Assembly (NCBI GenBank): GCA_021801235.1
Contig: JAJYYG010000045.1
Coordinates: 62,001-126,000 of the forward strand
Origin: Actinomycetes bacterium
GTDB lineage: Bacteria; Actinomycetota; Acidimicrobiia; Acidimicrobiales; RAAP-2
DNA length: 64,000 bases
Reading direction: 5' to 3'
Part shown: piece by piece, positions 34,652 to 58,940 of the stretch
Position numbering within the stretch: the first letter of the stretch is position 1
Layout of the letters: each line of letters starts with the position of its first letter
Program-made: the position numbers and the translations under genes
The notes under the pieces: model-generated
What the model saw: only the letters and a program-made list of their open reading frames with translations
Told to the model about the DNA's origin: nothing
Databases searched by the model: none

Positions 34652-34655
34652 GCGT

Positions 34656-35489
34656 TCAGTCCTTCGACTCGGCGGTGCCGTTGCCGGTTCCGTTGCCGTC
34701 CGACCGGGTGGACGACCCCCCGGTGGTGATCAACTCGACGGTGCGCTGGGTGTCGTAGTCGGCGATCGGGCCGCTGCTGACCAGCCGGCCGAGGTACAGG
34801 ACGGCGATGCGGTCGGCCACCTCGAAGACGTCGGTGAGGTTGTGGGAGATGACCAGCACGGCGATCCCCCGCTCACCCAGCCGGTGGATGAGATCGAGCA
34901 CCTGCGCCGTCTGGGAGACCCCGAGGGCCGCGGTGGGTTCGTCCATGATGACCAGCTTGGCGTCGCGCATCACCGCCCGGGCGACCGCCACCGACTGGCG
35001 TTGGCCGCCCGAGAGGGACCCCACGGGTTGGCGGACCGACTGGACGGTGGTCACCGACAGGTCGGCCAGGGTCTGCTTGGCCGTCTTCTCCATCGTGGCC
35101 TCGTCGAGCAGGCGGCGGGTGAGGAGCTCGTGGCCGAGGAACATGTTCTGGACGATGTCCAGGTTGTCGCACAGCGCGAGGTCCTGGTAGACGGTGGCGA
35201 TGCCGAGGTCGTCGGCGTCGCGGGGGGTATGGACCTCGACCGGGCGTCCCTCCCACGAGATGACACCGTCGCTCGGCGCCCAGATGCCGGAGACCGTCTT
35301 GATCAGGGTGGACTTGCCCGCCCCGTTGTCGCCGACCAGGGCGGTGATCTGACCGGCGGGGACGTCGAGGTCGACCCCGTTGAGCGCCTGGACGGCTCCG
35401 AAGGTCTTGGTGATCCCGCGCAGGCCGAGCAGCGGACCACCAGCACCCCCGGCCAGGCCGGGGGTGCTGGTGTCCGTGGCGATGCTCAC
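34656..35489 (-). CDS. xylG: Sugar ABC transporter ATP-binding protein, xylose type
   Basis: ATPase of the sugar importer, 277 residues with a single nucleotide-binding domain. Most ribose/xylose ATPases have two fused domains, so this is the short form. Walker A GDNGAGKST lies near 53-61, the Q-loop TVYQDLALCDNLDIVQNMFLG near 100, signature SLSGGQRQSVAVARAVM, Walker B LVIMDEPTAALG, and the switch His in VISHNL. It sits 40 bp after the binding protein gene and 4 bp before the permease gene. Confidence 0.9.
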   Translation of the reverse strand: MSIATDTSTPGLAGGAGGPLLGLRGITKTFGAVQALNGVDLDVPAGQITALVGDNGAGKSTLIKTVSGIWAPSDGVISWEGRPVEVHTPRDADDLGIATVYQDLALCDNLDIVQNMFLGHELLTRRLLDEATMEKTAKQTLADLSVTTVQSVRQPVGSLSGGQRQSVAVARAVMRDAKLVIMDEPTAALGVSQTAQVLDLIHRLGERGIAVLVISHNLTDVFEVADRIAVLYLGRLVSSGPIADYDTQRTVELITTGGSSTRSDGNGTGNGTAESKD

Positions 35490-35529
35490 GCGGGCCGATC
35501 GGAGATCGGGGCGTTCCGTCGCATCCGGG

Positions 35530-36744
35530 TCAGTGGATGCCGTAGGTGCGGCAGTTGGCGGCGTAGCTCCCCGTGCACAGCTGGGCGGCGCTGATGAAGT
35601 TGTCCGCGATCACCGTCGACTGCACCGTCTGGGGCGTCACCCACTCGGGGGTGAGGAGCACCGAGGGGACGGAGACCTTGGCCACCGTGTCCATGGTGGA
35701 ACCGTTGACCAGGCTGCTCGGAGCCGGCTTGCCAGCCCGCAGGTACAGGGCCAGAGCGGCCGCGGCCTGTGCCTCCTCGTAGATCGGCTTGTAGACCGTT
35801 CCGCACTGGTAGCCCGAGATGATGTTCTGGATCCCCACCAGGGTGGCGTCCTGGCCGGTGACCGGGAACTTCTGCGGCGGGATGTTCAGCGTCTTCAGGT
35901 AGGTGATGATCGGGGCGGCGTTCTCGTCATTGGGGGTGAGGACCGCGTTGACCCCGGGATGGGCGGTGTAGGCCTGCTGGAACTCGGTCTCCGCGGTGGG
36001 CGGATCCCAGGTCCCGGCGGGTGCGGCCGCCTTCACCCAGGCACCGGAGGCGAACAGCGGGTTGATCACCGCGTCGTAGCCCTGGGCGAACAGGGTGGCG
36101 TTGTTGTCGGTCGGTGCGCCCACCATCACGATGACGTTGGGCTTGGAGACCTTCCAGTTGGCCACGCACGACACGAGGCCCTGGCCGATCAGCGTCCCGA
36201 CCTTCACGTTGTTGAAGCTCACGTAGTACTGGCGGCTCCCACCCAGCGTGAGGCGGTCGTAGTCGATGACCGGCACGCCGTGGGCCTTGGCGTAGGTCTC
36301 GATGGAGGTGCCGACCCCGGAGTCGAGCGGGTCGACCACCAGCACGCTCGCCCCGTTGGTGATGGCGGACTGGGCGTCGGTCAGCTGGGTGGTGTCGCTG
36401 CCCTGGGCGTTCTGGATCGTGTACTCCGACGGGCTCAGCCCGGCGGTGTTGAACGCCTTGGCCAGGTAGGGGGCGTCGAACTCGGTGTACCGGGCCGAGC
36501 TGACCGTGTCCGGGAGGATGACCGCGATCTTGCCCTTGCCTTCGGCCGCCAGGCTCTTCAGCTTCGTCATGGCGGTGAAGGTGTTGGTGAACGAGGTTGC
36601 GGAGACGGCCGGTGTGGCCGAGCTGGATCCGGAACCGGAGGTGGTGGTGGTCGAGGACGAGCTGCTCGATCCGCAGGCTGCTGCGAGCAGTCCGCCGGCG
36701 AGCAGCATGGTCGCCAGACCTCGTTTGCCAGTGAGCTTGAACAC
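35530..36744 (-). CDS. xylF: Sugar-binding lipoprotein of the ABC importer, xylose type
   Basis: Extracellular solute-binding protein, 404 residues. A signal peptide ends in the lipobox LAAAC (Cys24), followed by a Ser/Thr-rich linker. The periplasmic-binding fold has IAVILPDTVSSARYTEFDAPYL near 74, LVVDPLDSG, VIDYDRLTLGG and VTGQDATLVGIQNIISGYQ, all as in XylF-type proteins. Xylose is the nearest family assignment, but another pentose or polyol is possible. No xylose catabolic gene is adjacent. Direct repeats like PHO boxes occur upstream. Confidence 0.9.
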   Translation of the reverse strand: MFKLTGKRGLATMLLAGGLLAAACGSSSSSSTTTTSGSGSSSATPAVSATSFTNTFTAMTKLKSLAAEGKGKIAVILPDTVSSARYTEFDAPYLAKAFNTAGLSPSEYTIQNAQGSDTTQLTDAQSAITNGASVLVVDPLDSGVGTSIETYAKAHGVPVIDYDRLTLGGSRQYYVSFNNVKVGTLIGQGLVSCVANWKVSKPNVIVMVGAPTDNNATLFAQGYDAVINPLFASGAWVKAAAPAGTWDPPTAETEFQQAYTAHPGVNAVLTPNDENAAPIITYLKTLNIPPQKFPVTGQDATLVGIQNIISGYQCGTVYKPIYEEAQAAAALALYLRAGKPAPSSLVNGSTMDTVAKVSVPSVLLTPEWVTPQTVQSTVIADNFISAAQLCTGSYAANCRTYGIH

Positions 36745-40431: not shown

Positions 40432-41754
40432 ATGATCGATATCCGGCTGGTCCGCGAGGAACCCGACGCAGTCAAGGCGGCGCTGGGCCGGCGCGCGGTC
40501 GACCCGGCCGACGTCGACCGCCTGGTGGAGCTCGACGCCGCGGCCCGGAGCCTGGTGGGCCGGCGGGACGACGTCCGCGCCGAGGTGAAGGCGCTCTCGC
40601 GACGGGTCGGCGAGGCCCGCCGCTCCGGAGACACCACCACGGCCGACGAGCTGGCCGCCCGCAGCCGGTCGCTGGGCGAGGAGGAGCGGGCTCTCGGGGA
40701 GGACGCCGACCGCGCGCAGGACGCGGTCCGCCAGGCGCTGCTCTACCTGCCCAACCTGCCGGCGGAGGACGCCCCCGACGGTGCCGGCCCCGAGGACAAC
40801 GTGGTGGTCCGGCAGTGGCCCGACGAGGCTCCCACCTATGCCGAGTGGCAGCGGGTGGCGCACTGGGACATCGGGACCGAGCTCGGGCTGCTGGACATGG
40901 AACGGGGGGCGAAGATCTCCGGTTCGATGTTCCCGCTGTTCCGCGGCTACGGCGCCCGCCTGCTCCGGGCGCTCACCTCGTACGCGCTCGACCGGCACGC
41001 CGACGCGTTCGAGGAGATCCGCCCGCCGACGCTGGTCAAGACCGAGACCATGGTCACCACCGGTCAGCTGCCCAAGTTCGCCGACGACGCCTACCATCTC
41101 GAGCGGGACGACCTGTGGGCCATCCCGACCGCCGAAGCCCCGCTCACCTCGATGATGCGGGGCGAGATCGTCGACGAGGACCGGCTCCCCCTCTGCCTGA
41201 CCGCCGCCACCGCCTGCTTCCGCCGGGAGGCGGGCGCCGCCGGGCGCGACACCCGCGGACTGCTCCGGGTCCACGAGTTCGACAAGGTGGAGCTGTTCGC
41301 CGTGGCCACGCCCGAGCAGGCGTCGGAGCTGCTCGAGTCGATGGTGGCCCGGGTGGAGACCATGCTCCGCCAGCTCGGCCTCCGGTACCGGGTGCTCGAC
41401 CTGTGCGCCGGCGACCTCGGCATCTCGTCGGCCCGCACCTTCGACCTCGAGGTCTACGCGCCGGGGGTCGACCTGTGGCTCGAGGTCTCGTCGGTCAGCT
41501 GGTTCCGGGACTACCAGGCCCGGCGGGGCAACATCCGCATCCGTCCGGCGGGGGGTGGCGCCCCGATCTTCGCGCACACCCTCAACGGATCGGCGTTGGC
41601 ATGGGCCCGGATCTGGGCGGCGCTGGTGGAGACCGGGCGCAGGGCCGACGGCTCGGTCGAGCTCCCCGAGGTGCTCCACCCGTACCTTCGGGGCGAGGGG
41701 GTCATCCCCGCTCCGGGTGCGTCGGGTCAGGCTCCCGCCGCATCGAAGCGGTAG
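40432..41754 (+). CDS. serS: Seryl-tRNA synthetase
   Basis: Charges tRNA-Ser with serine. The 440 residues start MIDIRLVREEPDAVKAAL, followed by the long antiparallel coiled-coil arm (about 28-105). The class II catalytic core includes FRGYGARLLRALTSYALD, IPTAEAPLTSMMRGEI, TACFRREAGAAGRDTRGLLRVHEFDKVELF (motif 2) and HTLNGSALAWARIWAALVE (motif 3). The last 28 bp overlap the end of the convergent response regulator gene, and the C-terminus is extended with an Ala/Pro-rich tail. The ATG at 40432 has weak upstream Shine-Dalgarno sequence. Confidence 0.96.
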   Translation: MIDIRLVREEPDAVKAALGRRAVDPADVDRLVELDAAARSLVGRRDDVRAEVKALSRRVGEARRSGDTTTADELAARSRSLGEEERALGEDADRAQDAVRQALLYLPNLPAEDAPDGAGPEDNVVVRQWPDEAPTYAEWQRVAHWDIGTELGLLDMERGAKISGSMFPLFRGYGARLLRALTSYALDRHADAFEEIRPPTLVKTETMVTTGQLPKFADDAYHLERDDLWAIPTAEAPLTSMMRGEIVDEDRLPLCLTAATACFRREAGAAGRDTRGLLRVHEFDKVELFAVATPEQASELLESMVARVETMLRQLGLRYRVLDLCAGDLGISSARTFDLEVYAPGVDLWLEVSSVSWFRDYQARRGNIRIRPAGGGAPIFAHTLNGSALAWARIWAALVETGRRADGSVELPEVLHPYLRGEGVIPAPGASGQAPAASKR

Positions 41755-42674
41755 CCGACGCCCCGCACGGTGGTGATCAGCTGCGGTGCGGAAGGCTCCA
41801 CCTCGATGTGGGTGCGGAGCCGCTTGATGTGCACGTCGAGCGTCTTGGTGTCGCCGAAGTAGTCGGACCCCCAGATCCGGTCGATGAGGACGTCCCGGGT
41901 GAGGACCCGGCCGGCGTTCTCCATGAGGAGGGAGAGCAGTTCGAACTCCTTGCGCCGGAGATGGACGTCGGCGCCGCGCACGAAGACGAGGTGCCGGTCG
42001 AGGTCGACCTGCACGCCGCCGGCGTCGAGGATCCCCCGCTCGGCGGTCCGGGTGTGGGTCCTCTCGCCGGTCCGTCCCGCATCCCCACCCGGGGCTCCCG
42101 CCTCCGCCCCGGTGCCCTGAAGGCCTGCCGACGGCGCCGGCGGAGGGGTCCGCCGGAGCACGGCCCGCATGCGGGCGACCAGCTCCCGCAGCCGGTACGG
42201 CTTGGCCACGTAGTCGTCGGCGCCGACCTCGAGGCCGACCACGGTGTCGATCTCGGTCCCCTTGGCGGTCACCATGATGATGGGCACCGACGAGCGCGCC
42301 CGGATCGTGCGGCACACGTCGATCCCCGACAGCTTGGGCAGCATGAGGTCGAGCAGGATGAGGTCGGGGTCGACCTCGTCGAAGAGGCGGAGCGCCTCGC
42401 TCCCGTCCCGGGCGACGGTGACGGCGAACCCCTCCCGGGACAGGCCGATCACCAGCGCGTCGATGAAGGACTCCTCGTCCTCGGCCAGGAGCACCCGGGT
42501 CCGGGACGGATCCGGGGCCGTGCCGTCCGCCGGGGCCGTGCCGTCCGCCGGGGCCGGCGGCGGATCGGTGCGGTCGACCGACGTGGCGGGGCCCGGGGCC
42601 CCGGCGCGGGCTGCGGGGACCGGGGCTGCGGGGACCGGGGCTGCGGGTTCGGGGTGTGCAGGGGTCGGGTTCAT
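41727..42674 (-). CDS. regX3: OmpR-type response regulator, RegX3-like
   Basis: DNA-binding partner of the kinase encoded 25 bp upstream. The 315 residues begin with a 58-residue proline/alanine-rich leader encoded by short tandem repeats, then the receiver VLLAEDEES, phosphoacceptor D109 in LILLDLMLP, T in IIMVTAKGTE, K158 in VAKPY. After a linker the winged helix has LRRKEFELLSLLMENAGRVLTRDVLIDRIWGSDYFGDTKTLDVHIKRLRTHIE, a close match to RegX3. In mycobacteria SenX3-RegX3 controls phosphate-starvation genes; that role here is inference. The real start may be inside the low-complexity leader. Confidence 0.88.
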   Translation of the reverse strand: MNPTPAHPEPAAPVPAAPVPAARAGAPGPATSVDRTDPPPAPADGTAPADGTAPDPSRTRVLLAEDEESFIDALVIGLSREGFAVTVARDGSEALRLFDEVDPDLILLDLMLPKLSGIDVCRTIRARSSVPIIMVTAKGTEIDTVVGLEVGADDYVAKPYRLRELVARMRAVLRRTPPPAPSAGLQGTGAEAGAPGGDAGRTGERTHTRTAERGILDAGGVQVDLDRHLVFVRGADVHLRRKEFELLSLLMENAGRVLTRDVLIDRIWGSDYFGDTKTLDVHIKRLRTHIEVEPSAPQLITTVRGVGYRFDAAGA

Positions 42675-42699: not shown

Positions 42700-43938
42700 T
42701 CAGGAGGAGTACTCGGGGGGGTTGGGAAGGATCAGGGTGAAGGTGGAGCCCTCACCCTCCCGGGAGTCGACCTCGACCCTACCCTGGTGGTTGTTGGCGA
42801 CGTGGCGCACGATGGACAGTCCGAGCCCGGTGCCGCCCGTCTCGCGGCTCCGGCCGTGGTCGACCCGGTAGAACCGTTCGAAGATGCGGTCGAGGTCGCG
42901 GGTCGGGATGCCGACCCCGGTGTCCGCCACCGAGAGCCGGACGCCGTCGTCGGTCTGCACCCCGCTGACCCGGACGACCGCGTCCTCGTAGGAGAAGGTC
43001 ACTGCGTTCTCGAGGAGGCTGTGGATGGCCGAAACCAGCTGGCGCCGGTCGCCCACCACGTGGATGGGGGGATCCGGCTCGAGGAGCTCGATGGTGATCC
43101 GGCGCTGCTCCGCGGCAGCCCGGACCCGCTCGACCGCCTCCGCCATGACCAGGTTGACGTAGATCGGCTCGCGGGGCGGGGTCTCCTCCGACTCGATACG
43201 GCTCAGGTCGAGCAGGTCGTCGATGATCCGGCTGACCCGGAAGGCCTCGGAGTGGATGCGCGACGCGAGCCGCTGGGCCACTGCGGGGTCGGGCTCGACG
43301 GTCAGGGTCTCGGCGAGCAGGCCGAGCGCCCCCATCGGCGTCTTGAGCTCGTGGCTCACGTTCGCCACGAAGTCGCGCCGGATCTCCTCGAGGCGCCGGC
43401 GCTCGGAGACGTCGTCGATGACGGCGATGACGCCCAGCGGACGCCGGCCGTCGTCGATCAGGCGGGTGCGGACGGTGATGGTCTGGCGAGGCGGGCCGTA
43501 GAGGTCGAGCGTGCGCTCGGCGGAGCCCTCGTGCCAGGCGTTCTCGAGGAGGCCGGTGACCGTCTGGGCGGCGAGGGCGTCACCGTGCCGGTTGTTCATC
43601 AGGGCATCGGCCCGGTCGTTCCGGAACGCGACCGCGCCGTTCTCGTCGCAGACGATGACGCCCTGAGGCAGGGTGTCGAGGGCTCGCCGGAGCCGGATGG
43701 CGTCGGAGCTCGCCTCGGTGACCGCCTCGGCGGCCTCGCCGGTGACCTTCTCGAGGTGACTGAGGACGGACTCGAGCCCTCCCTCCTCGGGGGGGTCGAC
43801 GCCGAGCCGGTTGGAGAGCGCGGTCAGGCGCTGGTGGAGGCTCCGGCGGCTCGACCGCCGGCCCAGCCGGTAGGCGATGAGCACGGCGACCACCGCCACG
43901 ACGGCGACGGCGACGATGCCGATCTCGTAGGACTTCAC
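42700..43938 (-). CDS. senX3: Sensor histidine kinase, SenX3-like
   Basis: Membrane sensor kinase, 412 residues. One hydrophobic helix (about 5-24) is followed by a short basic stretch, a PAS domain (about 82-176, LDTLPQGVIVCDENGAVAFRND), the HisKA domain with phospho-His196 in VANVSHELKTPMGAL, and the HATPase domain (about 290-405, N-box LVSAIHSLLENAVTF, G-boxes DTGVGIP and GGTGLGLSIV). The arrangement of one helix, PAS and kinase matches SenX3. The GTG at 43938 was chosen because it begins just before the helix. Operon with regX3. Confidence 0.88.
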   Translation of the reverse strand: MKSYEIGIVAVAVVAVVAVLIAYRLGRRSSRRSLHQRLTALSNRLGVDPPEEGGLESVLSHLEKVTGEAAEAVTEASSDAIRLRRALDTLPQGVIVCDENGAVAFRNDRADALMNNRHGDALAAQTVTGLLENAWHEGSAERTLDLYGPPRQTITVRTRLIDDGRRPLGVIAVIDDVSERRRLEEIRRDFVANVSHELKTPMGALGLLAETLTVEPDPAVAQRLASRIHSEAFRVSRIIDDLLDLSRIESEETPPREPIYVNLVMAEAVERVRAAAEQRRITIELLEPDPPIHVVGDRRQLVSAIHSLLENAVTFSYEDAVVRVSGVQTDDGVRLSVADTGVGIPTRDLDRIFERFYRVDHGRSRETGGTGLGLSIVRHVANNHQGRVEVDSREGEGSTFTLILPNPPEYSS

Positions 43939-43988
43939 CGCCCCAGCATGACACCCCCGTCCCGGGCGCCGGGACCGCACCCAGGCAG

Positions 43989-44055
43989 CGGTAACAAACG
44001 CCGGAAATAACAGAAATTTATTGAAACAACACAAAACACTTTCTAAGGTAGTGAC
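43989..44055 (+). promoter_or_regulatory. AT-rich promoter region of the type IV secretion-like operon
   Basis: A 67-bp stretch with GTAACAAACG, AAATAACAG, AAATTTATTG and AACAACACAAAACAC is far richer in A and T than anything around it. It ends directly before the first gene of the secretion-like operon and is the obvious place for its promoter. The same spacer also serves the divergent kinase gene. No operator is recognised. Confidence 0.55.
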
Positions 44056-44430
44056 ATGCACCTTCCTCCCTCCCACCCGACGCCTCTCCACCCGACGCCC
44101 GGGGTGCTCCTCCGGGGCGCTCCCCTCCGCATGCCCGTGCCGTCCTTCCGCCTGACCGGCGTGGCGATGCATCCGAACGCGAACGCGCTCCCCGGTGGCC
44201 AGCTCCTCCAGAACCTCATGAACGGCATCGGTGGTTGGGCGCTCGCCCTGTCGCTGGTCGGGCTGGTGATCGGTGCCGCGGCCTGGGCGCTCGGCTCGCA
44301 CGGGCAGAACTACCAGCAGACGTTCGTCGGTCGCCGGGCCGTGCTGATCTCCGCGCTGGCCGCCCTGCTCATCGGGGCCGGACCGGCCATCGTCAACTTC
44401 TTCTTCGCCGCGGGCCAGGGGATCCACTGA
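44056..44430 (+). CDS. VirB2/TrbC-like small membrane protein, possible pilin
   Basis: A 124-residue protein. An N-terminal Pro/His-rich leader (about 1-40) is followed by two hydrophobic helices (about 58-77 and 93-117) separated by a short polar loop GSHGQNYQQTFVGRRA. This two-helix layout, first position in the operon and next to VirB6- and VirB4-like genes, fits a VirB2/TrbC-type pilin. There is no sequence-level proof. The ATG at 44056 was used; the ATG at 44167 (MHPNANALPGGQ) would give a more typical 87-residue product. Confidence 0.65.
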   Translation: MHLPPSHPTPLHPTPGVLLRGAPLRMPVPSFRLTGVAMHPNANALPGGQLLQNLMNGIGGWALALSLVGLVIGAAAWALGSHGQNYQQTFVGRRAVLISALAALLIGAGPAIVNFFFAAGQGIH

Positions 44431-44431
44431 C

Positions 44432-45919
44432 ATGCTGACGGCCATCGCCGTGACCGCGGTTCCCGCCGCGTCGTGCCCGCCGGTCGTGGGGGCGCTGAGC
44501 CAGGCCGGTCTGGCCCCGGCGTGCTCCGCCGCCTCGGCGGTGTCGGGAGCCGTCGGGTCGGTGGCGGGCCAGGTCGTCGGCCTCGGCGTGGGATCCGTGC
44601 TCGACGGGATCGCCGGGTGGGTCTCCTCCGGCGCCGTCTGGCTCCTCGGTCAGATCGGCACTGTCCTCGCCGCCACCACGTCCGTGCAGCTCGGAGCGTC
44701 GTGGTTCACCACCCACTACCGGGTGATGGCCGCCCTGGCGGGGGCCGTCGTGGTCCCGCTGCTCCTTTTGGGGGCGATCCAGGCGATCGCCCGCCAGAGT
44801 GCCTCCCTCCTCCTGAGGTCGGTGCTCGTCAACGTCCCCCTGGCCCTGGTGCTCACCGCGGTGGCGGTCAAGCTGGTCCAGCTGGGCCTGGCCCTGACCG
44901 ATGCGATGAGCGCCTCGGTGGCGGGAGGGGCAGGGACCGACACCGGCCATGTGTTCGGAGCCGTCGTCAGGGCCCTGTCGCCCGCTGCCACCGGCGGCCA
45001 ACCGGCGGTGCCCAGCTTCATCCTGCTCATGGGCGGGCTGGCCGTGGTCTTCGGGGCGTTTCTGCTCTGGGTCGAGCTGTTGGTCCGGGCGGCCGCCGTC
45101 TATGTGGCCGTGCTGTTCCTCCCGCTCGCCCTGGCCAGCCTGGCCTGGCCGGCCATCTCCCACTGGTGTCGCCGGTTGGTCGACACCCTGGTGGCGCTCG
45201 TCCTGGGGAAGTTCGTGATCGTCGCCGTCTTGAGCCTGGCGGCCGGGGCCCTGGCGAGCGGCACCGGGTCGGTCCCCGCCGGGGCGTCGGGCGCCGGAGC
45301 GTCGGCCGGCTTCACCGGGGTGCTGGCGGGTGCCGCCCTGCTGCTGCTGGCGGCCGCCTCGCCCTGGGCGCTGTTCCGGTTGCTCCCGTTCCTGGAGGCC
45401 GGGGCAGTCGGGCACCTGGAGGGCCAGGGTCGGCGCACCGCCCTCACCGTCGCCGGTCCCGTCCGAACCCTGGGCCAGACCGCCCTGCGGCTGGCCGGCG
45501 GTGGCGGTGGTGCCGGTGCCGGCGGCAGGGAGATCGCCGGTGCGCTGGCCGCGGCCCGGGGAGGTTCCGGCTCCGCCACCCCTGGTGGCCGCGATGGTGG
45601 TGGAGGCGGAGGTGGAGGGCCGGAAGGGAGCGGCGGTGGAGGGGTCCCCGGGGGCCCCGGTGCCGGTCCGTCGTCCTGGGCGACGACCGGTGTCGGCAGC
45701 GCCGCCGCCCCCGGCTCGGGGGTCCCGATGCGCGAGCCGCACCGCGCCGCCAGCGAGGCCATGCGCGCCGCCCTCGCCGCCGTGCCACCGGCCGGTCGCG
45801 GTGGGGAGGCACCGGCCGGTCCGACCCGGCCGTCCTCCGGGACCGACGGCACCTCCGGACCGGGCGCGGCCGGACCCGAGGACACCGGACCGCGCGTCCC
45901 CGGTGCCGGCCGTGGCTGA
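44432..45919 (+). CDS. VirB6/TrbL-like polytopic membrane protein
   Basis: A 495-residue protein. A probable signal or first helix is followed by about six to seven hydrophobic helices up to residue 330 (e.g. VVVPLLLLGAIQAIARQSASLLLRSV, FGAFLLWVELLVRAAAVYVAVLFLPLALASLAW). The last 150 residues are extremely Gly/Ser/Pro-rich and disordered. VirB6/TrbL proteins form the inner-membrane channel of type IV secretion systems. The LLWVELLVRAAAVYVAVLFLPLALA segment is typical of actinobacterial TrbL-like proteins. It starts one base after the pilin-like gene and overlaps the next gene by 8 bp. Confidence 0.8.
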   Translation: MLTAIAVTAVPAASCPPVVGALSQAGLAPACSAASAVSGAVGSVAGQVVGLGVGSVLDGIAGWVSSGAVWLLGQIGTVLAATTSVQLGASWFTTHYRVMAALAGAVVVPLLLLGAIQAIARQSASLLLRSVLVNVPLALVLTAVAVKLVQLGLALTDAMSASVAGGAGTDTGHVFGAVVRALSPAATGGQPAVPSFILLMGGLAVVFGAFLLWVELLVRAAAVYVAVLFLPLALASLAWPAISHWCRRLVDTLVALVLGKFVIVAVLSLAAGALASGTGSVPAGASGAGASAGFTGVLAGAALLLLAAASPWALFRLLPFLEAGAVGHLEGQGRRTALTVAGPVRTLGQTALRLAGGGGGAGAGGREIAGALAAARGGSGSATPGGRDGGGGGGGGPEGSGGGGVPGGPGAGPSSWATTGVGSAAAPGSGVPMREPHRAASEAMRAALAAVPPAGRGGEAPAGPTRPSSGTDGTSGPGAAGPEDTGPRVPGAGRG

Positions 45920-47564
45920 GGACCCCGGACCGGCAGCCGGGCGGGTGCGCTACCGGTTCGGGCCGCTCGAGCAGCGGGGCCTGATCGCCGGATGGCGGGG
46001 CGGTCAGATCGCCGTGGTGGCCGCGAGCCTGATCCTCGGGGTCTTCGCCCTCCGGTCGACCCCGTCAGTCGGAGGAGCGGCCGGGGCGTTCACCTGTGCG
46101 GCGCTCGGCGTCGCCGTGGCGTGGTGGCCGGTCGGCGGGCGTACCGGAGAGCAGTGGCTGCCGCTGGTGTTCCGGTGGGCGGTGGCGGCCGCGGCGGGAG
46201 GCCGGCTCCAACTGGCCGACGGGCCGCGCTCCGGCCACCTGGTCCGGTCGACGCGGGTGGACGGGGACCCGGGGGAACCGGACGCACCGCGGAGATTGGT
46301 CATCGAGGCCGCCCGGGGGCGTCGGCCCCGGCCCGGCTCGGGACCTCCTGGCGCCTTCGCCGGTCTGCAGATCGGCGCGGTCCCGACCGGCCCGGCTCCC
46401 GGGGATCCCTCCGCCGGCGTGGTGCTGGACCAGCGCGCCCGCACCGTCACCGCGGTGCTGGCCGTGCGCGGCCACAGCTTCGCACTGGCGAGCCCCTCCG
46501 ACCAGGACGGCCGGATCGCCGGCTGGGCCCGCGTGCTGTCGTCGATGGCGCGGGAGGGGACCGACGTCCACCGCGTCCAGTGGATCGAGTCGTGCCTCCC
46601 CGACGACGGCGCCGGCGTCCGGACCCACCTGCGGGACCGTGCCGTCCTCGCTCCCGGAGACCGTGCCGTCCGGTCCTACCAGGCCCTCCTCGACCATTCG
46701 ACGCCGGTGACCAGGCGGCACCAGGTGCTGATCGGGGTGTCCGTCCACCGGGGTCGTGCCGCGCGGGCGATCCGGGCCTCGGGGGGCGGCGAAGCGGGAG
46801 CCGGGGCCGTCGTCCTCCGGGAGGCGGTGGCCCTCCAGCGCCAGTTGGGCGAGGCGGATCTCACCGTGGAGGGGATCCTCGGGCCGGCGGCGCTGGCGTC
46901 GGTCATGCGCGAGGCCACCACCCCGTGCGCGGCCCTCGGGCCCCCGGTGCCCGGGCACGGCCCGGGGCCGGTTGCGGCGGAGCCGCACCCGAGGGGCCAC
47001 CCGCCGTCCGTGGGCCTGCCCGGTCCAGGCGCGTGGGCGGGGGAGGGAACGCTCCATCCCTGGCCGATGGCGGTGGACCCGAGCTGGGAGCTGGTGCGGA
47101 CCGACGCCACCTGGCACGTCACCTACTGGATCGCGGAGTGGCCCCGGGTCGACGTCACCCCCGACTTCCTCGGGCCGCTCCTCTTCTCACCGGTACGGCG
47201 CTCGCTGACCCTGGTGATGGAACCGGTGAGCCCCAGCCGGGCGGCCCGCCAGGTCGCCCAGGCCCGGACGGCGGACATCGCGGACGGTGAGCTACGTCGC
47301 CGGGGGGGATTCCTGGTGACCGCCCGCCAGACGCGCGAACGGGAGGAGGTGGAGCACCGGGACGTGGAGCTCGCCGACGGTCACGCCCAGTACCGGTTCT
47401 CGGGCTACGTCACCGTGACGGCGGACAGCGCCGCCGAGCTCGCCGAGGCCTGCGCCTCGGTCGAGCAGGCGGCGGGGCAGGCCCGCCTCGAGCTACGGCG
47501 GCTCTACGGCGAGCAGGACGTGGCGTTGACGTGCACCTTACCGCTGGGCCGGGGGCTGGCGTGA
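45912..47564 (+). CDS. SCO6880-family type IV secretion protein
   Basis: A 550-residue protein. Near the N-terminus VRYRFGPLEQRGLIAGWRGGQIAVVAASLILGVFAL matches the start of SCO6880-family proteins; two hydrophobic helices (about 35-52 and 55-75) resemble VirB3/PrgI. The rest lacks Walker motifs and resembles the N-terminal, non-ATPase part of VirB4 (inferred from the family). Thus VirB4 function seems split between this protein and the next one. The GTG start overlaps the previous stop by 8 bp. A 12-codon ORF with GTGA at its start and ATGA at its end bridges to the VirB4-like gene. Confidence 0.83.
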   Translation: MAEDPGPAAGRVRYRFGPLEQRGLIAGWRGGQIAVVAASLILGVFALRSTPSVGGAAGAFTCAALGVAVAWWPVGGRTGEQWLPLVFRWAVAAAAGGRLQLADGPRSGHLVRSTRVDGDPGEPDAPRRLVIEAARGRRPRPGSGPPGAFAGLQIGAVPTGPAPGDPSAGVVLDQRARTVTAVLAVRGHSFALASPSDQDGRIAGWARVLSSMAREGTDVHRVQWIESCLPDDGAGVRTHLRDRAVLAPGDRAVRSYQALLDHSTPVTRRHQVLIGVSVHRGRAARAIRASGGGEAGAGAVVLREAVALQRQLGEADLTVEGILGPAALASVMREATTPCAALGPPVPGHGPGPVAAEPHPRGHPPSVGLPGPGAWAGEGTLHPWPMAVDPSWELVRTDATWHVTYWIAEWPRVDVTPDFLGPLLFSPVRRSLTLVMEPVSPSRAARQVAQARTADIADGELRRRGGFLVTARQTREREEVEHRDVELADGHAQYRFSGYVTVTADSAAELAEACASVEQAAGQARLELRRLYGEQDVALTCTLPLGRGLA

Positions 47565-47595
47565 GCCGGCGGCGACCGGAAGTCCGCGGCCGGCG

Positions 47596-49008
47596 ATGAG
47601 GGGCCCGGGACCGAGGGTGGCGGCCCATGTCGCCACCACCCGCCACCTCGGGGGCGCCTACCCGCTCGCCACGGAGGCGGGGCTCGGACACGTGGGCGTG
47701 CTGATCGGCCGGGACCTCCTCGGAGGCTCGTTCGTGTACGACCCGTTCGCGCTCTACCAGCAGGGCATCGTGACGAACCCCAACATGGTGGTCTTCGGCC
47801 AGATCGGCCGTGGGAAGAGCTCGTTCGTCAAGTCGTACCTCTGGCGCCAGGCCGTGTTCGGGCGGCAGGCATGGGTGGTCGACCCGAAGGGCGAGTACGG
47901 GCCGCTGGCCGAGGCATGGGGTGTCGAGCCGGTTGCCCTCCGACCGGGCGGTTCGGTCCGCCTCAACCCGTTGGACACCGGTTCGCCCGCGGCGGGGTGC
48001 CCGGTCGGTGGGGACGGACTGCCGGTGGGTGCCGGGGGGTCGGCGGACCCGACCGACCCGGTGCGCCGGAGCCGGATCGAGCTCACCTCCTCGTTGGCGG
48101 TCGCCTGCCTGGGTCGCGAGCTCGTGCCTCGGGAGCGTGCGGCGATCGACGCTGCGCTGGCCGAGGCCGACCGACGATCCCGGGCCGAGGGCCAACCGGC
48201 CCCCACCTTGCCCCAGGTGGTCGAGTCCCTGCTCGATCCGACCCCGTCGGCCGCCGCCGAGCTGCGTACCGGCAAGCGGGTGCTGATGGAGGACGGTCGG
48301 GACGTGGCCCTCGAGCTCCGCCGTCTCGTGCACGGCGACCTCGCCGGCATGTTCGACGGACAGACGACGCCCGGGTTGCGCCTCGACGCCCCCCTGGTCG
48401 TCCTCGATCTCGCCGCCGTCTACAACTCGCCCGCACTCGGCGTGCTGATGGCCTGCGCGGCCGCGTGGCTCCAGGGGGCGGTCCGGGCGGAGCACCGGCA
48501 CCAGGTGGTCGTGGTGGTCGACGAGGCCTGGGCGATCCTGAGCAATTTGGGAGTGGCACGCTGGCTGCAGGCGTCGTGGAAGCTGTCCCGTGCCCTCGGC
48601 ATCGCCAACATGGCCGTGCTCCACCGATTGTCCGACCTGGGGGCGGTGGGTGCGGGCGACTCGGAACAGGTCGGGCTGGCCCAAGGGCTCCTGGCCGATT
48701 CGGAGACGCGGGTCGTCTACGCCCAGTCGCCGGGCGAGGTGGCACGCGCCGGGGAGCTCCTGGGCCTCACCAGCACCGAGGCGGACCTGGTGACCCAGCT
48801 CCGGCGCGGTGTGGCGCTGTGGAAGGTGGGTCGCCGGTCCTTCCTGGTCGAGCACCAGCTGTCACCCCACGAGCGTGGCCTGGTCGACACCGACGCCGCC
48901 ATGGGGGCAGCGCCGCCGCCCGGACCCGACGACCCGGAGGCGCACGGCGGCGGGCACGACCCGGAGGCGCACGGCGGCGGGCACGACGGTCGGGCAGGGG
49001 CCGGGTGA
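47596..49008 (+). CDS. VirB4-like conjugation/secretion ATPase
   Basis: A 470-residue ATPase domain protein. It shows LGGSFVYDPFALYQQGIVTNPNMVVFGQIGRGKSS with Walker A GQIGRGKS at 68-75, AWVVDPKGEYGPLAEAWG just after, Walker B VVVVVDEAWAIL near 300 and RVVYAQSPGEV near 375, all as in VirB4/TraC-type energisers. The C-terminus carries a 9-residue direct repeat DPEAHGGGH twice (48931-48984). The ATG at 47596 overlaps the stop of a tiny ORF. Its stop overlaps the VirD4-like start (GTGA). Confidence 0.87.
   Translation: MRGPGPRVAAHVATTRHLGGAYPLATEAGLGHVGVLIGRDLLGGSFVYDPFALYQQGIVTNPNMVVFGQIGRGKSSFVKSYLWRQAVFGRQAWVVDPKGEYGPLAEAWGVEPVALRPGGSVRLNPLDTGSPAAGCPVGGDGLPVGAGGSADPTDPVRRSRIELTSSLAVACLGRELVPRERAAIDAALAEADRRSRAEGQPAPTLPQVVESLLDPTPSAAAELRTGKRVLMEDGRDVALELRRLVHGDLAGMFDGQTTPGLRLDAPLVVLDLAAVYNSPALGVLMACAAAWLQGAVRAEHRHQVVVVVDEAWAILSNLGVARWLQASWKLSRALGIANMAVLHRLSDLGAVGAGDSEQVGLAQGLLADSETRVVYAQSPGEVARAGELLGLTSTEADLVTQLRRGVALWKVGRRSFLVEHQLSPHERGLVDTDAAMGAAPPPGPDDPEAHGGGHDPEAHGGGHDGRAGAG
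48931..48984 (+). repeat. 27-bp tandem duplication at the end of the VirB4-like gene
   Basis: Two exact copies (48931-48957 and 48958-48984) encode the histidine-containing motif DPEAHGGGH twice. A recent in-frame duplication in a disordered tail. Confidence 0.9.
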
Positions 49009-50696
49009 ACGCGCTCGCCGCCTCCGGGGTCGCCGTGAGCCTGGTGGCGCTGGTGGCCTCCGGGGCCGTCGGCAACCGGGGCGCCGCCCCGGGCTCCCAT
49101 CTCCGCGGTCTCCGTCAACGGGGGCCCTCCGGCTCCGGCCACCGACTTCTGCCCACCCGGTCACCCCGGGGTCCGGCTCGGTCAGCCCGAGGCTCCGCCC
49201 GCCCCGCCCGGCCGGCGGCGCCCGGCTGGTCCCGGGTCGCCACGCCCGGCCGATGGTCCCGGGCGGGGGGTCCACGGCACGCGTCCGCCCACTGGGCCCG
49301 ACCGTCCGACCTCCGCCCACTTGCCGTCGGACGCGGTGGTGCAGGAGGGGATGGAGGCCCGCCGCCCGGCCGGCTCGTCCTCGGGTGGGCCGGGCCGCGG
49401 CTGGTGGCGGCGGAGCGGGCCCAGTCGGTGATCGTGTTCGGGCCCACCCAGTCCCGCAAGACGACCGGGTTCGCGGTGCCGGCCATCCTCGGCTGGAGCG
49501 GTCCGGTGCTGGCGACCAGCGTCAAGACGGACCTGATCGGGGACACCGTCGCCCACCGGCGCACGTGCGGCCGGGTGTGGTGCTTCGACCCTTCGGGCGT
49601 GACCGGCCTGCCGTCGGCGGCGTGGTCGCCGCTGCCCGGCTCACGGACCTGGCCCGGTGCCCGCCGGGCGGCCTCGGCGCTCACCGACGTGGCGAAGGGG
49701 TCGGTGGGCGGGATGGCCGACGGGGACTTCTGGTACGCCGCGGCCACGAAGATGCTCGCCCCGCTGCTGTTCGCCGCGTCGACCGGGTCCCGGTCGATGG
49801 CCGACGTCATCCGCTGGGTCGACACCCAGGCGGACTCCGAGGTGCTCGACCTGCTGGAGAGGGCCGGTGTGCCGGAGGCGGTGGACGCGGCCCGTTCGAT
49901 GCTCGGGAAGGAGGACCGCCAGCGAAGCTCGATCCTCACCACGTTGGAGACCCTTCTCGAACCGTTCGCCGACAGCCGCACCGGGGGATGGGACCCCATC
50001 GTCCCCGGTGCCGGCGGAGAACGGGACGGCGGGCCGAACGGTGCGCCGGGAACCCCGGACGCCATCGACCCGGCGGGCCTCCTGGCGGGGGACAACACCT
50101 TGTTCCTTTGCGCGCCCGCCCACGACCAGCGGCGCCTCAGCCCGCTGTTCACCGCGGTGGTGCGCCAGGTGGTCGAGCACGTCTACGACCGCGTGACCCG
50201 GACCGGCCGTCCACTCGATCCCCCGCTGCTGGTCGTCCTCGACGAGGCGGCCAACATCGCCCCCCTCTCGGACCTCGACGCACTGGCCTCCACCGCGGCC
50301 GGGCACGGAATCCAGTTGGTCACCGTCTGGCACGACCTGGCCCAGATCACCGCCCGGTTCGGCCCTCGGGCGGCGACCGTCGTCAACAACCACCGGGCGA
50401 AGGTCTTCCTCTCGGGGATCTCCGACCCGTCGACGCTGGACCATGCCAGCGCGCTGATCGGCGACGAGGAGCTGTTGCTGCCGGCGTTCACCTCCGGGGG
50501 CGCGGGCATGCGGTCCACCACCCGGACGCCGACCACCCGGCGGCTGGTCCCGCCCGATGCGGTCCGGCGGGTGCCGCCGGGTGAGGGGATCCTCGTCTAC
50601 GGCGGGCTTCCCCCCGCGTGGCTCCGCCTGCGGACCTGGTACGACGACCCGGTGCTCGCGGCTCGGGCCCGGGCTCCGGGCGGGCCGGGCGACTAG
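49005..50696 (+). CDS. VirD4/TraG-like coupling ATPase
   Basis: A 563-residue protein. One short hydrophobic helix (about 4-22) is followed by a long Arg/Pro/Gly-rich region (about 25-125), then the ATPase domain with Walker A FGPTQSRKTTG near 145-155 (the GPTxSxKT form of coupling proteins), Walker B LLVVLDEAANIAPL near 405, and GIQLVTVWHDLAQITARFG near 435. Coupling proteins bring substrates to the secretion channel. The GTG start overlaps the VirB4-like stop. No relaxase or mobilisation gene follows; the next gene is an unrelated oxidoreductase on the other strand. Confidence 0.87.
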   Translation: MNALAASGVAVSLVALVASGAVGNRGAAPGSHLRGLRQRGPSGSGHRLLPTRSPRGPARSARGSARPARPAAPGWSRVATPGRWSRAGGPRHASAHWARPSDLRPLAVGRGGAGGDGGPPPGRLVLGWAGPRLVAAERAQSVIVFGPTQSRKTTGFAVPAILGWSGPVLATSVKTDLIGDTVAHRRTCGRVWCFDPSGVTGLPSAAWSPLPGSRTWPGARRAASALTDVAKGSVGGMADGDFWYAAATKMLAPLLFAASTGSRSMADVIRWVDTQADSEVLDLLERAGVPEAVDAARSMLGKEDRQRSSILTTLETLLEPFADSRTGGWDPIVPGAGGERDGGPNGAPGTPDAIDPAGLLAGDNTLFLCAPAHDQRRLSPLFTAVVRQVVEHVYDRVTRTGRPLDPPLLVVLDEAANIAPLSDLDALASTAAGHGIQLVTVWHDLAQITARFGPRAATVVNNHRAKVFLSGISDPSTLDHASALIGDEELLLPAFTSGGAGMRSTTRTPTTRRLVPPDAVRRVPPGEGILVYGGLPPAWLRLRTWYDDPVLAARARAPGGPGD

Positions 50697-53546: not shown

Positions 53547-53966
53547 TCAGCGATCGTCCAGGAGCTCACCGAAGCGGCGCTCCACCCGCTCGGCCCGCCG
53601 CACGTACCAGAAGCCCAGCCCGACGAGGGGCGGGTAGATCCCACCGCCGAGGACCAACAGGGTGACCGGGATCCCTGCCAGTTGGGCCCGGGCCAGCCCG
53701 GGGATCAGCACCGCCAGGAGGGGATAGAGCGCCAGGAGGAGGATGGCGGGTCCCAGCACGCTGACCGTGGCCCCCAACTGTGCCCGCATCAGGGAGCCCA
53801 GCAGGACCCTTCCGTAGTCGTCCTGGCGGAGGACGTCGTCCATGCCCGGTGCGCCCGAACGGTCGGCAGACCGCCGGGCCGGGGCCCGGATCGCCTGACG
53901 GACCGGCACCACTCCCGCGACGGCACCGGTCTCCGCCGGGACGGGCGGGACCGGGCGCGCGCTCAC
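53547..53966 (-). CDS. Small membrane protein preceding the symporter gene (DUF485-like)
   Basis: A 139-residue protein from the GTG at 53966, or 98 residues from an ATG at 53843 (MDDVLRQDDYGRVLL). Two hydrophobic helices (LGPAILLLALYPLLAVLIPGL and LLVLGGGIYPPLVGLGFWYV) and a C-terminal basic tail. Small two-helix proteins of DUF485 type commonly precede SSS acetate carriers; this one fits by place and shape, not by strong sequence. The GTG overlaps the LytTR regulator stop (GTGA). Confidence 0.72.
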   Translation of the reverse strand: MSARPVPPVPAETGAVAGVVPVRQAIRAPARRSADRSGAPGMDDVLRQDDYGRVLLGSLMRAQLGATVSVLGPAILLLALYPLLAVLIPGLARAQLAGIPVTLLVLGGGIYPPLVGLGFWYVRRAERVERRFGELLDDR

Positions 53967-54748
53967 CGTTGCTGCCGCTGGGCTCCGCCCAGCAGCCGGC
54001 GCCGGAGCTCCGCGGCGTGCCGCCGGCTCACGGGCAGCAGCGTGTCGCGGACCTTGACCGACGTGCGGGCGCCCTCGGATCGGACCTCGCACACCTCGGC
54101 CAGGTCGACGAGATAGCCACGGTGGACCCGGACGAAACCGTGGGGGAGCCACTGCTCCTCCAGGGCGACCATGGGGATGCGCACGAGGTGGCTTGATCCG
54201 TCCCTGGTGTGGAGGCGCACGTAGTCGCCGGAGGCCTCGGCCCACACCACCTCGTCGCGCCGGACCAGCCGTGTCGTGCCTGCGGTCTCGACGGCGATCA
54301 CGTCGAGGTGCCCGCCGCCATCGGCGTCTGCTGCCGGTACCTGGGATGCGGGGACCGTCCGGGTGAGGAGGGTGGCCAGCCGATCGGCGGTGACCGGCTT
54401 CAACAGGTAGCCGACCGCTCCCACGCCGAACGCGGCGACCGCGTGCTCCTCGTGGGCGGTGACGAAGGCGATGGCCGGTGGTGCCGCGAACCTGGCCAGG
54501 ATGGTCGCCAGCTCAAGCCCGTCCAGCCCGGGCATGCGCACGTCCAGGAGCACCAGGTCGAATGGTTGGTCTTGGAGGAGGCGGAGCGCCTCGGTGGCGT
54601 TCGAGGCCGATCGCGTCGATCCCACCCGCGGATCATTCCGGAGCAGGTAGACGAGCTCGTCGAGGGAGGGAGCCTCGTCGTCCACCGCCAGGACCGCCAG
54701 TCCGCCCGCCGGGTCCCTCGACCCCGTGACGACGGTTGCCGCCGTCAC
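53963..54748 (-). CDS. LytTR-family response regulator
   Basis: A 261-residue regulator. The receiver (about 18-130) has AVDDEAPSLDELVYLL, phosphoacceptor D69 in LVLLDVRMPGLDGLEL, a Thr in AFVTAHEEH and K in LLKPVT. The C-terminal LytTR DNA-binding domain (about 150-255) shows VWAEASGDYVRLHTRDGSSHLVR, FVRVHRGYLVDLAEV and LLPVSRRHAAELRRRLLG. It overlaps the kinase stop by 4 bp. Three direct repeats matching the LytTR-site consensus at 21-bp period occur in the divergent intergenic region. In E. coli, LytTR pairs such as BtsSR and YpdAB control pyruvate-type transporters, which fits the symporter. Confidence 0.93.
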   Translation of the reverse strand: MTAATVVTGSRDPAGGLAVLAVDDEAPSLDELVYLLRNDPRVGSTRSASNATEALRLLQDQPFDLVLLDVRMPGLDGLELATILARFAAPPAIAFVTAHEEHAVAAFGVGAVGYLLKPVTADRLATLLTRTVPASQVPAADADGGGHLDVIAVETAGTTRLVRRDEVVWAEASGDYVRLHTRDGSSHLVRIPMVALEEQWLPHGFVRVHRGYLVDLAEVCEVRSEGARTSVKVRDTLLPVSRRHAAELRRRLLGGAQRQQR

Positions 54749-55926
54749 GGGACCGCCACCGCTGCCTGGAATTTGGGGATGCGCACCGTGACCTTGGTCC
54801 CCGCGGCGACCCCCGTCTCGACGACCAGGCCGAACTCCTCGCCGAACACCGTGCGCAACCGCTCGTCGACGTTGTGGAGGCCGACCGCATCGCCGTCCTC
54901 CCTCCCGGAGAGGACCCGCCGCACCCGGTCGGGGTCGGCCCCGGCGCCGTCGTCCTCCACCGTGATCACCGCGTCGTTGCCGACATCGTGCGCGGTGATC
55001 GAGAGGTGGCCGGCCCAGTCGTTCGGCTCCAAGCCGTGCCGGACCGCGTTCTCGACGAGGGGTTGGAGGATGAGGGAGGGAACCCGGACCGAGAGCACCT
55101 CGGGGGCGACCCGCAGGGTGACGGCCAGCCGGTCGCCGAACCGGGCACGCTCGAGCTCGAGGTAGGTGTCGACCAGCCGGAGCTCCTCCGCCACGGTCAC
55201 GAACTGATCGCGCCCCCGGAAGCTGTAGCGGGTGAAGTCGGCGAACTGGACGAGCAGTGAGCGGGCCCGGTCGGGATCGGTCCGCACGAACGACTCGATG
55301 GCGGTGATGGCGTTGTAGATGAAGTGCGGGGAGATCTGAGCCCGGAGGAACCGCAGCTCGGCCTGGGCGGCCCGCCGTCGGGACCGGTCGAGCTCGGCCA
55401 GTTCGAGCTGGGTGGCGATGAACTGGGCCACCTCGCTGGCGAGGCGGAGGAGGCCGGCCGCGGCCGAGGGCCCGGCGGCCACCAGCGCACCGACCACCGC
55501 GCCGTCGACGACCAACGGCACCACCACCGCGGCCTGCAGGTCACAGGCGGCGCCTCGGGGACAGGTCAGGTCGGTGGCCGTCAGCACCTGCGGCTCCCCC
55601 GCCCCGACGGCCCTGGCCACCGGAGCCTCGAGCATGCGCTGGTGGTCCTCGTCGACTCCGTCGGCGGCGATGACGCCGGCCAGGTCGGCCAGCAGCACCC
55701 CGGGGGTGCCGAGCAGAGACTGCAGCTGAGCGGTCACCTTCCCCGAGCCGGCGCCGTGGAGCCCGCCCCGCAGGGCCGGCGCCAGCAGGTTCGCTGTGTG
55801 CAAGGTGGCATACCCGGCGCGCTGGGCGGGCGTGCCCAGCCTGCGCTCGCCGCGGACGACGAAACCCAGGACCACACCCAGCAGCACGACCACGCCGGCC
55901 ACGGCAAGCCACAGCAGCTCTGTCAT
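54745..55926 (-). CDS. LytS-type sensor histidine kinase with GAF domain
   Basis: A 393-residue kinase. A single N-terminal helix (about 4-24) anchors it, instead of the five-helix 5TM-Lyt domain. A GAF-like domain (about 60-180) contains TCPRGAACDLQAAVVVPLVVDGAVVGALVAAG, with cysteines at 122 and 128. The His_kinase domain has FLRAQISPHFIYNAITAIESFV with phospho-His201, then HATPase with LQPLVENAVRHGLEP and DDGAGADPD. Signal unknown; the cysteine pair might bind a cofactor. First gene of the operon, divergent from the acetate permease gene. Confidence 0.92.
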   Translation of the reverse strand: MTELLWLAVAGVVVLLGVVLGFVVRGERRLGTPAQRAGYATLHTANLLAPALRGGLHGAGSGKVTAQLQSLLGTPGVLLADLAGVIAADGVDEDHQRMLEAPVARAVGAGEPQVLTATDLTCPRGAACDLQAAVVVPLVVDGAVVGALVAAGPSAAAGLLRLASEVAQFIATQLELAELDRSRRRAAQAELRFLRAQISPHFIYNAITAIESFVRTDPDRARSLLVQFADFTRYSFRGRDQFVTVAEELRLVDTYLELERARFGDRLAVTLRVAPEVLSVRVPSLILQPLVENAVRHGLEPNDWAGHLSITAHDVGNDAVITVEDDGAGADPDRVRRVLSGREDGDAVGLHNVDERLRTVFGEEFGLVVETGVAAGTKVTVRIPKFQAAVAVP

Positions 55927-56121
55927 GATCTCCTAACCACTGACATCGGCCCGGAACGACCAACAGTTCACAGCGGCGACGGCGCCCCCCACGGGCGAGA
56001 TCGACTCCACGGCCAGCATGCCACAGGGGGTGGGACGCCATCGTGACGGACCGTCGACCTGTACGTGCCGCTACGGTCGTGGCGTTCCGGACGGACCGGC
56101 CGCCCGTGCCGGTGCCGGTCG

Positions 56122-56172
56122 CCCGTTCGTCGTGTAGGGCGGACCGTTCGTCGTGGGTGCGCCGCCGTTCGC
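56122..56172. promoter_or_regulatory. Three LytTR-type binding boxes with 21-bp period
   Basis: CCCGTTCGT (56122-56130), ACCGTTCGT (56143-56151) and GCCGTTCGC (56164-56172) are spaced exactly 21 bp start to start. The LytTR consensus is [TA][AC][CA]GTTN[AG][TG] as paired direct repeats with about 12-bp spacers. The middle copy matches completely, the first in eight of nine places and the third in seven. They lie within the 333-bp divergent spacer (55927-56259), 88 bp before the acetate permease start. Nothing else is recognised in the spacer apart from the GGAGG-type ribosome site at 56249. Confidence 0.72.
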
Positions 56173-56259
56173 AGAGTGCTCCGCCGGACCCCTTGCCATC
56201 GGACCGGCCAGACCGCACGATCACAGCAGGAAGGAAGTTCGTCCAGGGGAGGGAACACC

Positions 56260-56871
56260 ATGAGCAACGATGCACCGTCGGTCCGCGACAACCCGCTGCC
56301 GCCCACCCACCGGGTGGCCGACCCGGGACCACTGGGACTGGCGGCGTTCGCCATGACGACGTTCGCGCTGAGCGTCTCGAACGCCGACATCTGGGGCCCG
56401 GCGGTGAGCACCGCCCTCGCCCTCGCCCTCGTGTACGGCGGGGCCATCCAGGTGTTCGCCGGCATGTGGGAGTTCGCCCGCCGGAACACCTTCGGCGCCC
56501 TCGCCTTCACCTCCTACGGGGCGTTCTGGATCTCCTACTACGTGCTGGTGAAGTTCATCCTCCCGGGGGTGGCCAAGGCGGACGTGGCGACGGTGGTCGG
56601 CGTGTTCCTGCTCGGGTGGACCATCTTCACCGCCTACATGTTCGTCTCGACGCTGCGGCTCTCGGTCGCCCTGGTCGTCGTGTTCGGCCTCCTGGTGGTG
56701 ACCTTCGTCCTGCTGACCGTGGGGGCGTTCCAAGGGACCGCGTCGCTGACCAAGGCAGGTGGCTGGTTCGGTGTGGCCACCGCCGCCGGAGCCTGGTACG
56801 CCTCGTTCGCCGGGGTGACCAATGAGACGTTCGGCAAGGCGGTGCTGCCGATCGGATCGCTGAGCCGCTGA
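56260..56871 (+). CDS. GPR1/FUN34/YaaH-family acetate permease
   Basis: A 203-residue inner-membrane protein with six hydrophobic helices. The family motif near the start appears as DPGPLGLAAFAMTTFALSVSNA (NPAPLGL-like), and GAIQVFAGMWEFARRNTFGALAFTSYGAFWISYY is characteristic (the YaaH signature). These proteins move acetate and succinate in symport with protons. The ATG at 56260 follows GGGAGGGA. acs begins 71 bp downstream, so uptake and activation of acetate are linked. Confidence 0.94.
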   Translation: MSNDAPSVRDNPLPPTHRVADPGPLGLAAFAMTTFALSVSNADIWGPAVSTALALALVYGGAIQVFAGMWEFARRNTFGALAFTSYGAFWISYYVLVKFILPGVAKADVATVVGVFLLGWTIFTAYMFVSTLRLSVALVVVFGLLVVTFVLLTVGAFQGTASLTKAGGWFGVATAAGAWYASFAGVTNETFGKAVLPIGSLSR

Positions 56872-56942
56872 CCCTTCGCACCGCTGATCCACTGCACCAC
56901 CGATTCGCACCCGGGGACGACCCAGGGGGAAGGACCACCACC

Positions 56943-58940
<1,998 letters not shown>

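Follow-up and report, generated by a model that had tools for sequence, protein, structure and literature searches.

A Resident Type IV Secretion Module of Acidimicrobiales Co-occurs with an Unlinked MobF Relaxase

We analyzed a five-gene module at positions 44056–50696 of a 64,000-nucleotide stretch of DNA (the window; GenBank assembly GCA_021801235.1, contig JAJYYG010000045.1, positions 62,001 to 126,000) from the 2.79-Mb draft genome of an actinobacterium in the order Acidimicrobiales. The module is best explained, at a probability of roughly 0.6, as the membrane and motor core of a domesticated two-locus conjugation-type apparatus that exports the cell's own single-stranded DNA (ssDNA). 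Its nature as a type IV secretion system (T4SS) machine, its residence in the chromosome, and the coupling of its locus to an unlinked locus that encodes a relaxase are supported by the evidence presented below, from which we infer the substrate and the direction of transport.

Composition of the Module

Five tightly packed open reading frames (ORFs), all on the forward strand, make up the module according to an ORF check of the window, with starts re-set for the last three (GTG at 45912 for SCO6880, ATG at 47596 for the VirB4 ATPase, and GTG at 49005 for VirD4). Profile searches confirm the families that a preliminary description, made from the sequence alone, had given to these coupled genes: pilin-like, VirB6-like, SCO6880, VirB4-like, and VirD4-like. 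The first gene (44056–44430) encodes a VirB2/TrbC-like pilin of the DUF6112 family, matching PF19607 above cut-off (E = 9.9e-7) and TrbC weakly. Its conserved core begins at about residue 38 and its identity is 51–80% across 23 relatives; the predicted structure, of modest confidence (predicted local distance difference test, pLDDT, of 71), is a two-helix hairpin (residues 48–83 and 86–121) that has no match in PDB. The second gene (44432–45919), whose position is conserved in syntenic loci, encodes a VirB6-like polytopic membrane protein of the SCO6881 family (NF047967, E = 1.5e-10, below the cut-off of that profile).

The products of the next two genes are predicted to be two halves of VirB4 because they align to different parts of one VirB4 model, with SCO6880 covering positions 310–363 and the adjoining gene positions 413–729. 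SCO6880 (45912–47564) joins N-terminal membrane helices to a VirB4 N-terminal domain and matches NF042935 above cut-off (E = 1.6e-78). When its AlphaFold2 model (pLDDT 82; predicted template modeling score 0.80) was compared to PDB with Foldseek, only chains of R388 TrwK/VirB4 were matched at E < 0.001 (14 of 14; E = 1.7e-9). The ATPase half (47596–49008) matches NF045971 (conju_CD1110; 8e-16, with a model length of 752 positions) as well as AAA_10 (7e-6), and its motifs (Walker A GQIGRGKS; Walker B VVVDEAW) are invariant in 24 relatives. The profile and fold matches agree with the preliminary description, in which the VirB4 function looked split.

The last gene (49005–50696) encodes a VirD4/TraG-like coupling protein (PF02534, T4SS-DNA_transf, 9.3e-28; PF12696, TraG-D_C, 5e-19). 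Its Walker A motif (window 49425–49450) reads GPTQSRKT, in which the last glycine is replaced, and in many resident modules R, H, Q, M, Y, L, or F takes the place of this glycine. The module holds a VirB4-type ATPase, a VirB6-like channel protein, a VirB2-like pilin, and a VirD4/TraG coupling protein, all parts expected of T4SS machinery. Another such part, a relaxase, is encoded elsewhere in the genome, at a locus not linked to the module.

A Second Locus Encodes a Relaxase

Absence of a relaxase had been a central element of the preliminary description. This holds for the neighborhood of the module, as no relaxase adjoins it in the window or in syntenic loci, but not for the genome, where a genome-wide search recovered a MobF relaxase that co-occurs with the module together with a second coupling protein, T4CP2. 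Searches of the window genome for relaxases of the MOBP (PF03432), MOBQ (PF03389), and Replic_Relax (PF13814) families returned none, leaving MobF as the sole candidate found there. Of 18 genomes examined, 17 encode the TrwC/MobF domain (PF08751); across the family, 46 of 49 genomes do, mostly in a single short frame of 390–570 aa that lacks a helicase. In the window genome, MobF scores 201 bits against NF041492 (NCBIfam cut-off of 100) and is split over two strain-variant contigs. The relaxase ends on these contigs are two slightly different strain versions (dN of 0.035 and dS of 0.165, for nonsynonymous and synonymous divergence), which points to population variation within the assembly. Across 16 relaxases, Asp85 and the histidine motif do not vary and the nicking tyrosine hardly does. 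The catalytic residues are intact.

The relaxase locus is syntenic across the family. A gene for a PafB-PafC fusion lies directly upstream of the relaxase gene, and the gene for T4CP2 is convergent with it. The domains of the fusion (HTH_PafC, two WYL, and WCX) are those of a PafBC-type DNA-damage regulator; among the papers searched, none linked PafBC with relaxases and none was relevant to conjugation in Acidimicrobium. T4CP2 is of the TraG type (PF02534 and PF12696), and its ORF in the window genome contains a short run of N. It retains its Walker motifs, including the last glycine of Walker A. That T4CP2 keeps this glycine while the VirD4 of the module often does not suggests, without proving, that ATP-driven coupling would be done by T4CP2 rather than by VirD4.

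The Two Loci Co-occur and Share an Operator

Of 247 genomes of the class, 24 hold the resident module, and the genomes with T4CP2 are precisely these 24; each of them also has a MobF relaxase. Presence of T4CP2 was defined by a profile score above 320 bits, the next best score being 292, and 16 of the 24 modules were confirmed by neighborhood. Fisher's test of the association gives P = 7e-34, a value inflated by kinship.

The loci also share a tandem 10-bp operator. Upstream of the pilin gene (44004–44036, forward strand), it consists of GGAAATAAC AGAAATTTAT TGAAACAACA CAAAAC, with GAAA at 44004, 44013, and 44023 and CAAAA at 44032, and is followed by a putative −10 element (TAAGGT, 44044–44049) and the pilin ATG at 44056. 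Across 57 pilin upstream regions, 18 pairs of TGAAA-N5-TGAAA are spaced by 10 bp against approximately zero expected. The window has one match to the operator, and of 38 matches in 2.9 Mb of fetched loci, 33 are upstream of the pilin gene. A profile of the operator trained solely on pilin upstream regions exceeds a score of 8 for 8 of 17 relaxase upstream regions, compared with 3 of 178 for control genes (P = 8e-8). Two of these eight are strain copies from one genome and two more are from one genus, such that about six lineages are represented. Genome-wide in the window genome, five of seven near-matches are at the pilin gene or at the relaxase promoter, which is present in two strain copies.

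A direct association of the two functions is seen in five loci (L126, L224, L229, L233, and L240, including Acidiferrimicrobium), where a MobF relaxase gene is immediately divergent from the pilin gene. The relaxases adjacent to modules are from a branch nearer to mobile ones, meaning that the module can partner with a MobF relaxase, not that the resident relaxase has moved. The preliminary description had left the substrate as unknown. Co-occurrence of MobF and a second coupling protein with the module, together with MobF beside the module in a few lineages, makes DNA the leading candidate.

The Module is Resident and Vertically Inherited

The order of the five genes and their setting are conserved in tens of loci from several families of Acidimicrobiales. 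Two named isolates, Aciditerrimonas ferrireducens MV1 and Acidiferrimicrobium sp. IK, also have the module. Within the family of the window genome, SCO6880 is present in 40 of 49 genomes. The module is divergent from a gene for a PhoR/PnpS-like histidine kinase (42700–43977, reverse strand; NF046044, E = 2.5e-84, and TIGR02966, 1.5e-82, both below cut-off). This is paired with a gene for an OmpR/PhoB-family response regulator (41727–42674, reverse strand; PF00072 and PF00486), a neighbor conserved by synteny, beyond which is the housekeeping gene serS (40432–41754, forward strand, with a start set in this analysis), also syntenic in relatives. Tight packing is interrupted in one subclade (L046, L179, L187, and L199), in which genes are inserted between those for SCO6880 and the ATPase. 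The insert of L046 resembles a sugar-ABC-like cluster at 33305–36708 of the window. Some lineages have the module at another place, and its downstream side varies between genera; when downstream genes were compared across genera, no constant cargo or substrate gene was found after VirD4.

Other data likewise argue for vertical inheritance. A tree of VirB4 separates the copies by kind (resident, relaxase-adjacent, mobile, and Streptomyces cmd), the number of changes being the minimum possible; support for the resident group as such is weak. Pairwise distances of all five module proteins track those of the unlinked PafBC gene (r = 0.69–0.94, P = 0.0005), and the best plasmid-borne VirB4 is 41.9% identical. 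In close pairs, dN/dS is 0.08–0.43 for the module, relaxase, and T4CP2, with one high value for VirB4 involving a contig end; all are under purifying selection. The codon-position G+C of the module matches that of its neighbors and gives no sign of recent import. Because of its fixed place, separate VirB4 clade, congruent distances, purifying selection, and the low (42%) identity to plasmid VirB4, the locus is resident and vertically inherited and not a mobile element, as the preliminary description had proposed. We rejected the reading as a mobile element on the grounds of synteny, tree, distances, and plasmid VirB4 divergence. Hallmarks of integrated conjugative elements were not found: no integrase was seen in syntenic loci, no tRNA gene in the window, neither attachment sites nor patchy strain distribution appeared among relatives, and the place of the module is fixed across the order rather than variable.

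Elsewhere in the window, two CrcB-like fluoride channel genes flank a third small gene (118 aa) at 22505–23747, and at 53547–58940 a LytS/LytTR-like sensor pair adjoins an acetate/solute symporter gene and an acs-like gene, possibly as an acetate-sensing unit.

Comparison with Known Systems

In gene content, the closest system is the chromosomal cmdABCDEF operon of Streptomyces (SCO4126–4131), which has been studied as a differentiation operon and for which no relaxase partner is described (PMC2782261), nor was a search for one made here. The operon occurs in the Streptomyces genomes that were sampled, and its six genes include the five types of the module in the same order (a pilin-sized protein, SCO6881, SCO6880, VirB4 ATPase, and coupling-like genes). 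It differs from the module in having an extra membrane-anchored protein of 265–282 aa and a VirB4 of a distant, separate clade. Phosphate-transport genes occur near both: pstSCAB is within ~15 kb of cmd in three Streptomyces genomes (L343–L345), and pst genes are directly beside the module in L061 and L064, of two Acidimicrobiales families, and are listed also for L184. Adjacency to pst is a feature of some families only.

In way of life, the closest systems are archaeal Ced and Ted, which are domesticated, chromosomal, and built of few components (VirB2, VirB6, and VirB4 types). Ced is tied to the DNA-damage response and imports DNA, and both lack a relaxase (PMC9905601), whereas a MobF relaxase and two coupling proteins are present in the window genome. 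In sequence, the comparison extended to a weak match to a CedB profile. The authors of that work knew of no other such domesticated case for DNA transfer (PMC9905601).

Mobile SCO6880-type T4SSs (on Iamia plasmids and in S. coelicolor at SCO6871–6884) have homologous DUF6112, SCO6881, SCO6880, VirB4, and VirD4 proteins but, unlike the module, add a hydrolase, a 200–240 aa protein, ArdC, a primase, and large relaxase-helicase proteins. A related six-gene cluster (L130–L137 and L139) is found in other classes of the phylum; its VirB4 is closely similar, and it has in addition a protein of 200–280 aa. In L134, a MobF relaxase gene is a few genes away. The 200–280 aa proteins of mobile, cmd, and other-class clusters are mutually homologous; the label VirB8-like was considered for them and stays a guess, as they match nothing in Pfam or PDB. 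Chromosomal DNA is exchanged in Actinomycetota by mycobacterial distributive conjugal transfer and by Streptomyces TraB. The former uses ESX/type VII genes and the latter is FtsK-like, and neither is a T4SS with a relaxase (PMC12857230, PMC9905601). DNA uptake in Helicobacter pylori is known to run through ComB, likewise a resident T4SS, which in part goes against Ced and Ted being the only such case.

Weighing the Explanations

If the module and the second locus form one apparatus, a regulator would bind the tandem TGAAA repeats and activate the pilin operon together with the relaxase gene, with the adjacent OmpR-family protein as the leading candidate and PafBC as the second. The relaxase would then nick chromosomal DNA at a presumptive site. 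T4CP2, VirD4, or both may deliver the relaxase-DNA complex to a channel of the VirB6-like protein, SCO6880/VirB4, and pilin, through which chromosomal ssDNA would pass to a neighboring cell or be released, for recombinational repair or exchange.

Several points weigh against this explanation. No DNA transfer is known in Acidimicrobiales, the window genome is only 88% complete, and no origin of transfer was found, the conserved blocks upstream of T4CP2 showing nothing convincing. Neither a VirB8-like protein nor a cell-wall hydrolase is in the module (unlinked copies were not searched for), whereas mobile relatives carry both beside it; lacking the 200–280 aa membrane protein and wall hydrolase of those relatives, the proposed apparatus has a gap at the wall-crossing step. 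For co-occurrence, the T4CP2 threshold was picked after scores had been seen, 8 of the 24 modules (G030, G041, G172, G193, G197, G230, G275, and G293) were assigned by score and kinship, and 16 of the 24 genomes are of one family with the rest in six others, implying few independent events. More than half of the relaxase genes have no detectable operator, which is missing in several genera, including Acidimicrobium. Finally, relaxases adjacent to modules group nearer to mobile than to resident relaxases.

The main rival is a DNA-independent membrane complex or protein secretion system with a role in differentiation, the envelope, or chromosome segregation, with the relaxase serving something else. 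It draws on the cmd operon, which has the same gene types and which, when deleted, impairs sporulation and chromosome segregation (PMC2782261), and on the proximity of pst genes to cmd and to some modules. The adjoining PhoR-like pair suggests physiological control, and pilin, VirB4, and VirD4 genes are retained in strongly reduced genomes. To our knowledge, however, Acidimicrobiales do not have Streptomyces-like sporulation, and co-occurrence with relaxase and T4CP2, the shared operator, and the intact relaxase active site are all counter to a function independent of DNA. We regard this rival as unlikely.

Uptake of DNA, by an apparatus like archaeal Ced or H. pylori ComB and with the relaxase acting elsewhere, would fit the minimal VirB2, VirB6, and VirB4-type composition, which resembles that of Ced/Ted (PMC9905601), and a DNA-damage regulator beside the relaxase gene would suit repair by exchange. 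Nevertheless, Ced and Ted work without a relaxase (PMC9905601), whereas here the module is accompanied by a MobF relaxase and two coupling proteins, which serve export in known systems, so that we give uptake little credence. Related T4SS clusters with a primase, ArdC, hydrolase, and large helicase-like proteins in the same genera bring to mind an integrated conjugative element in decay, its mobility genes lost. The place beside the kinase/regulator pair and serS, fixed across the order, along with purifying selection, congruent distances, and a separate clade, strongly disfavors decay and makes it very improbable.

Implications

Conjugation machines are generally held to belong almost wholly to plasmids and integrated elements. 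The boldest reading compatible with the evidence, which we hold to be about as likely as not, is that members of a bacterial order conjugate their own chromosome with a domesticated and vertically inherited system. Its relaxase, its two coupling proteins, and its minimal T4SS would be divided between two co-regulated loci, one beside a DNA-damage regulator, and would allow routine DNA export or exchange between cells without a mobile element. If true, this would be a second, independent case of a resident system, one that uses a classical relaxase and is found in a widespread bacterial order. An earlier survey reported an unexplained excess of relaxases over T4SSs in actinobacteria (PMC3158045), and a resident two-locus system may bear on that excess. 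Such a system could also account for gene flow in acidic soils and sediments.

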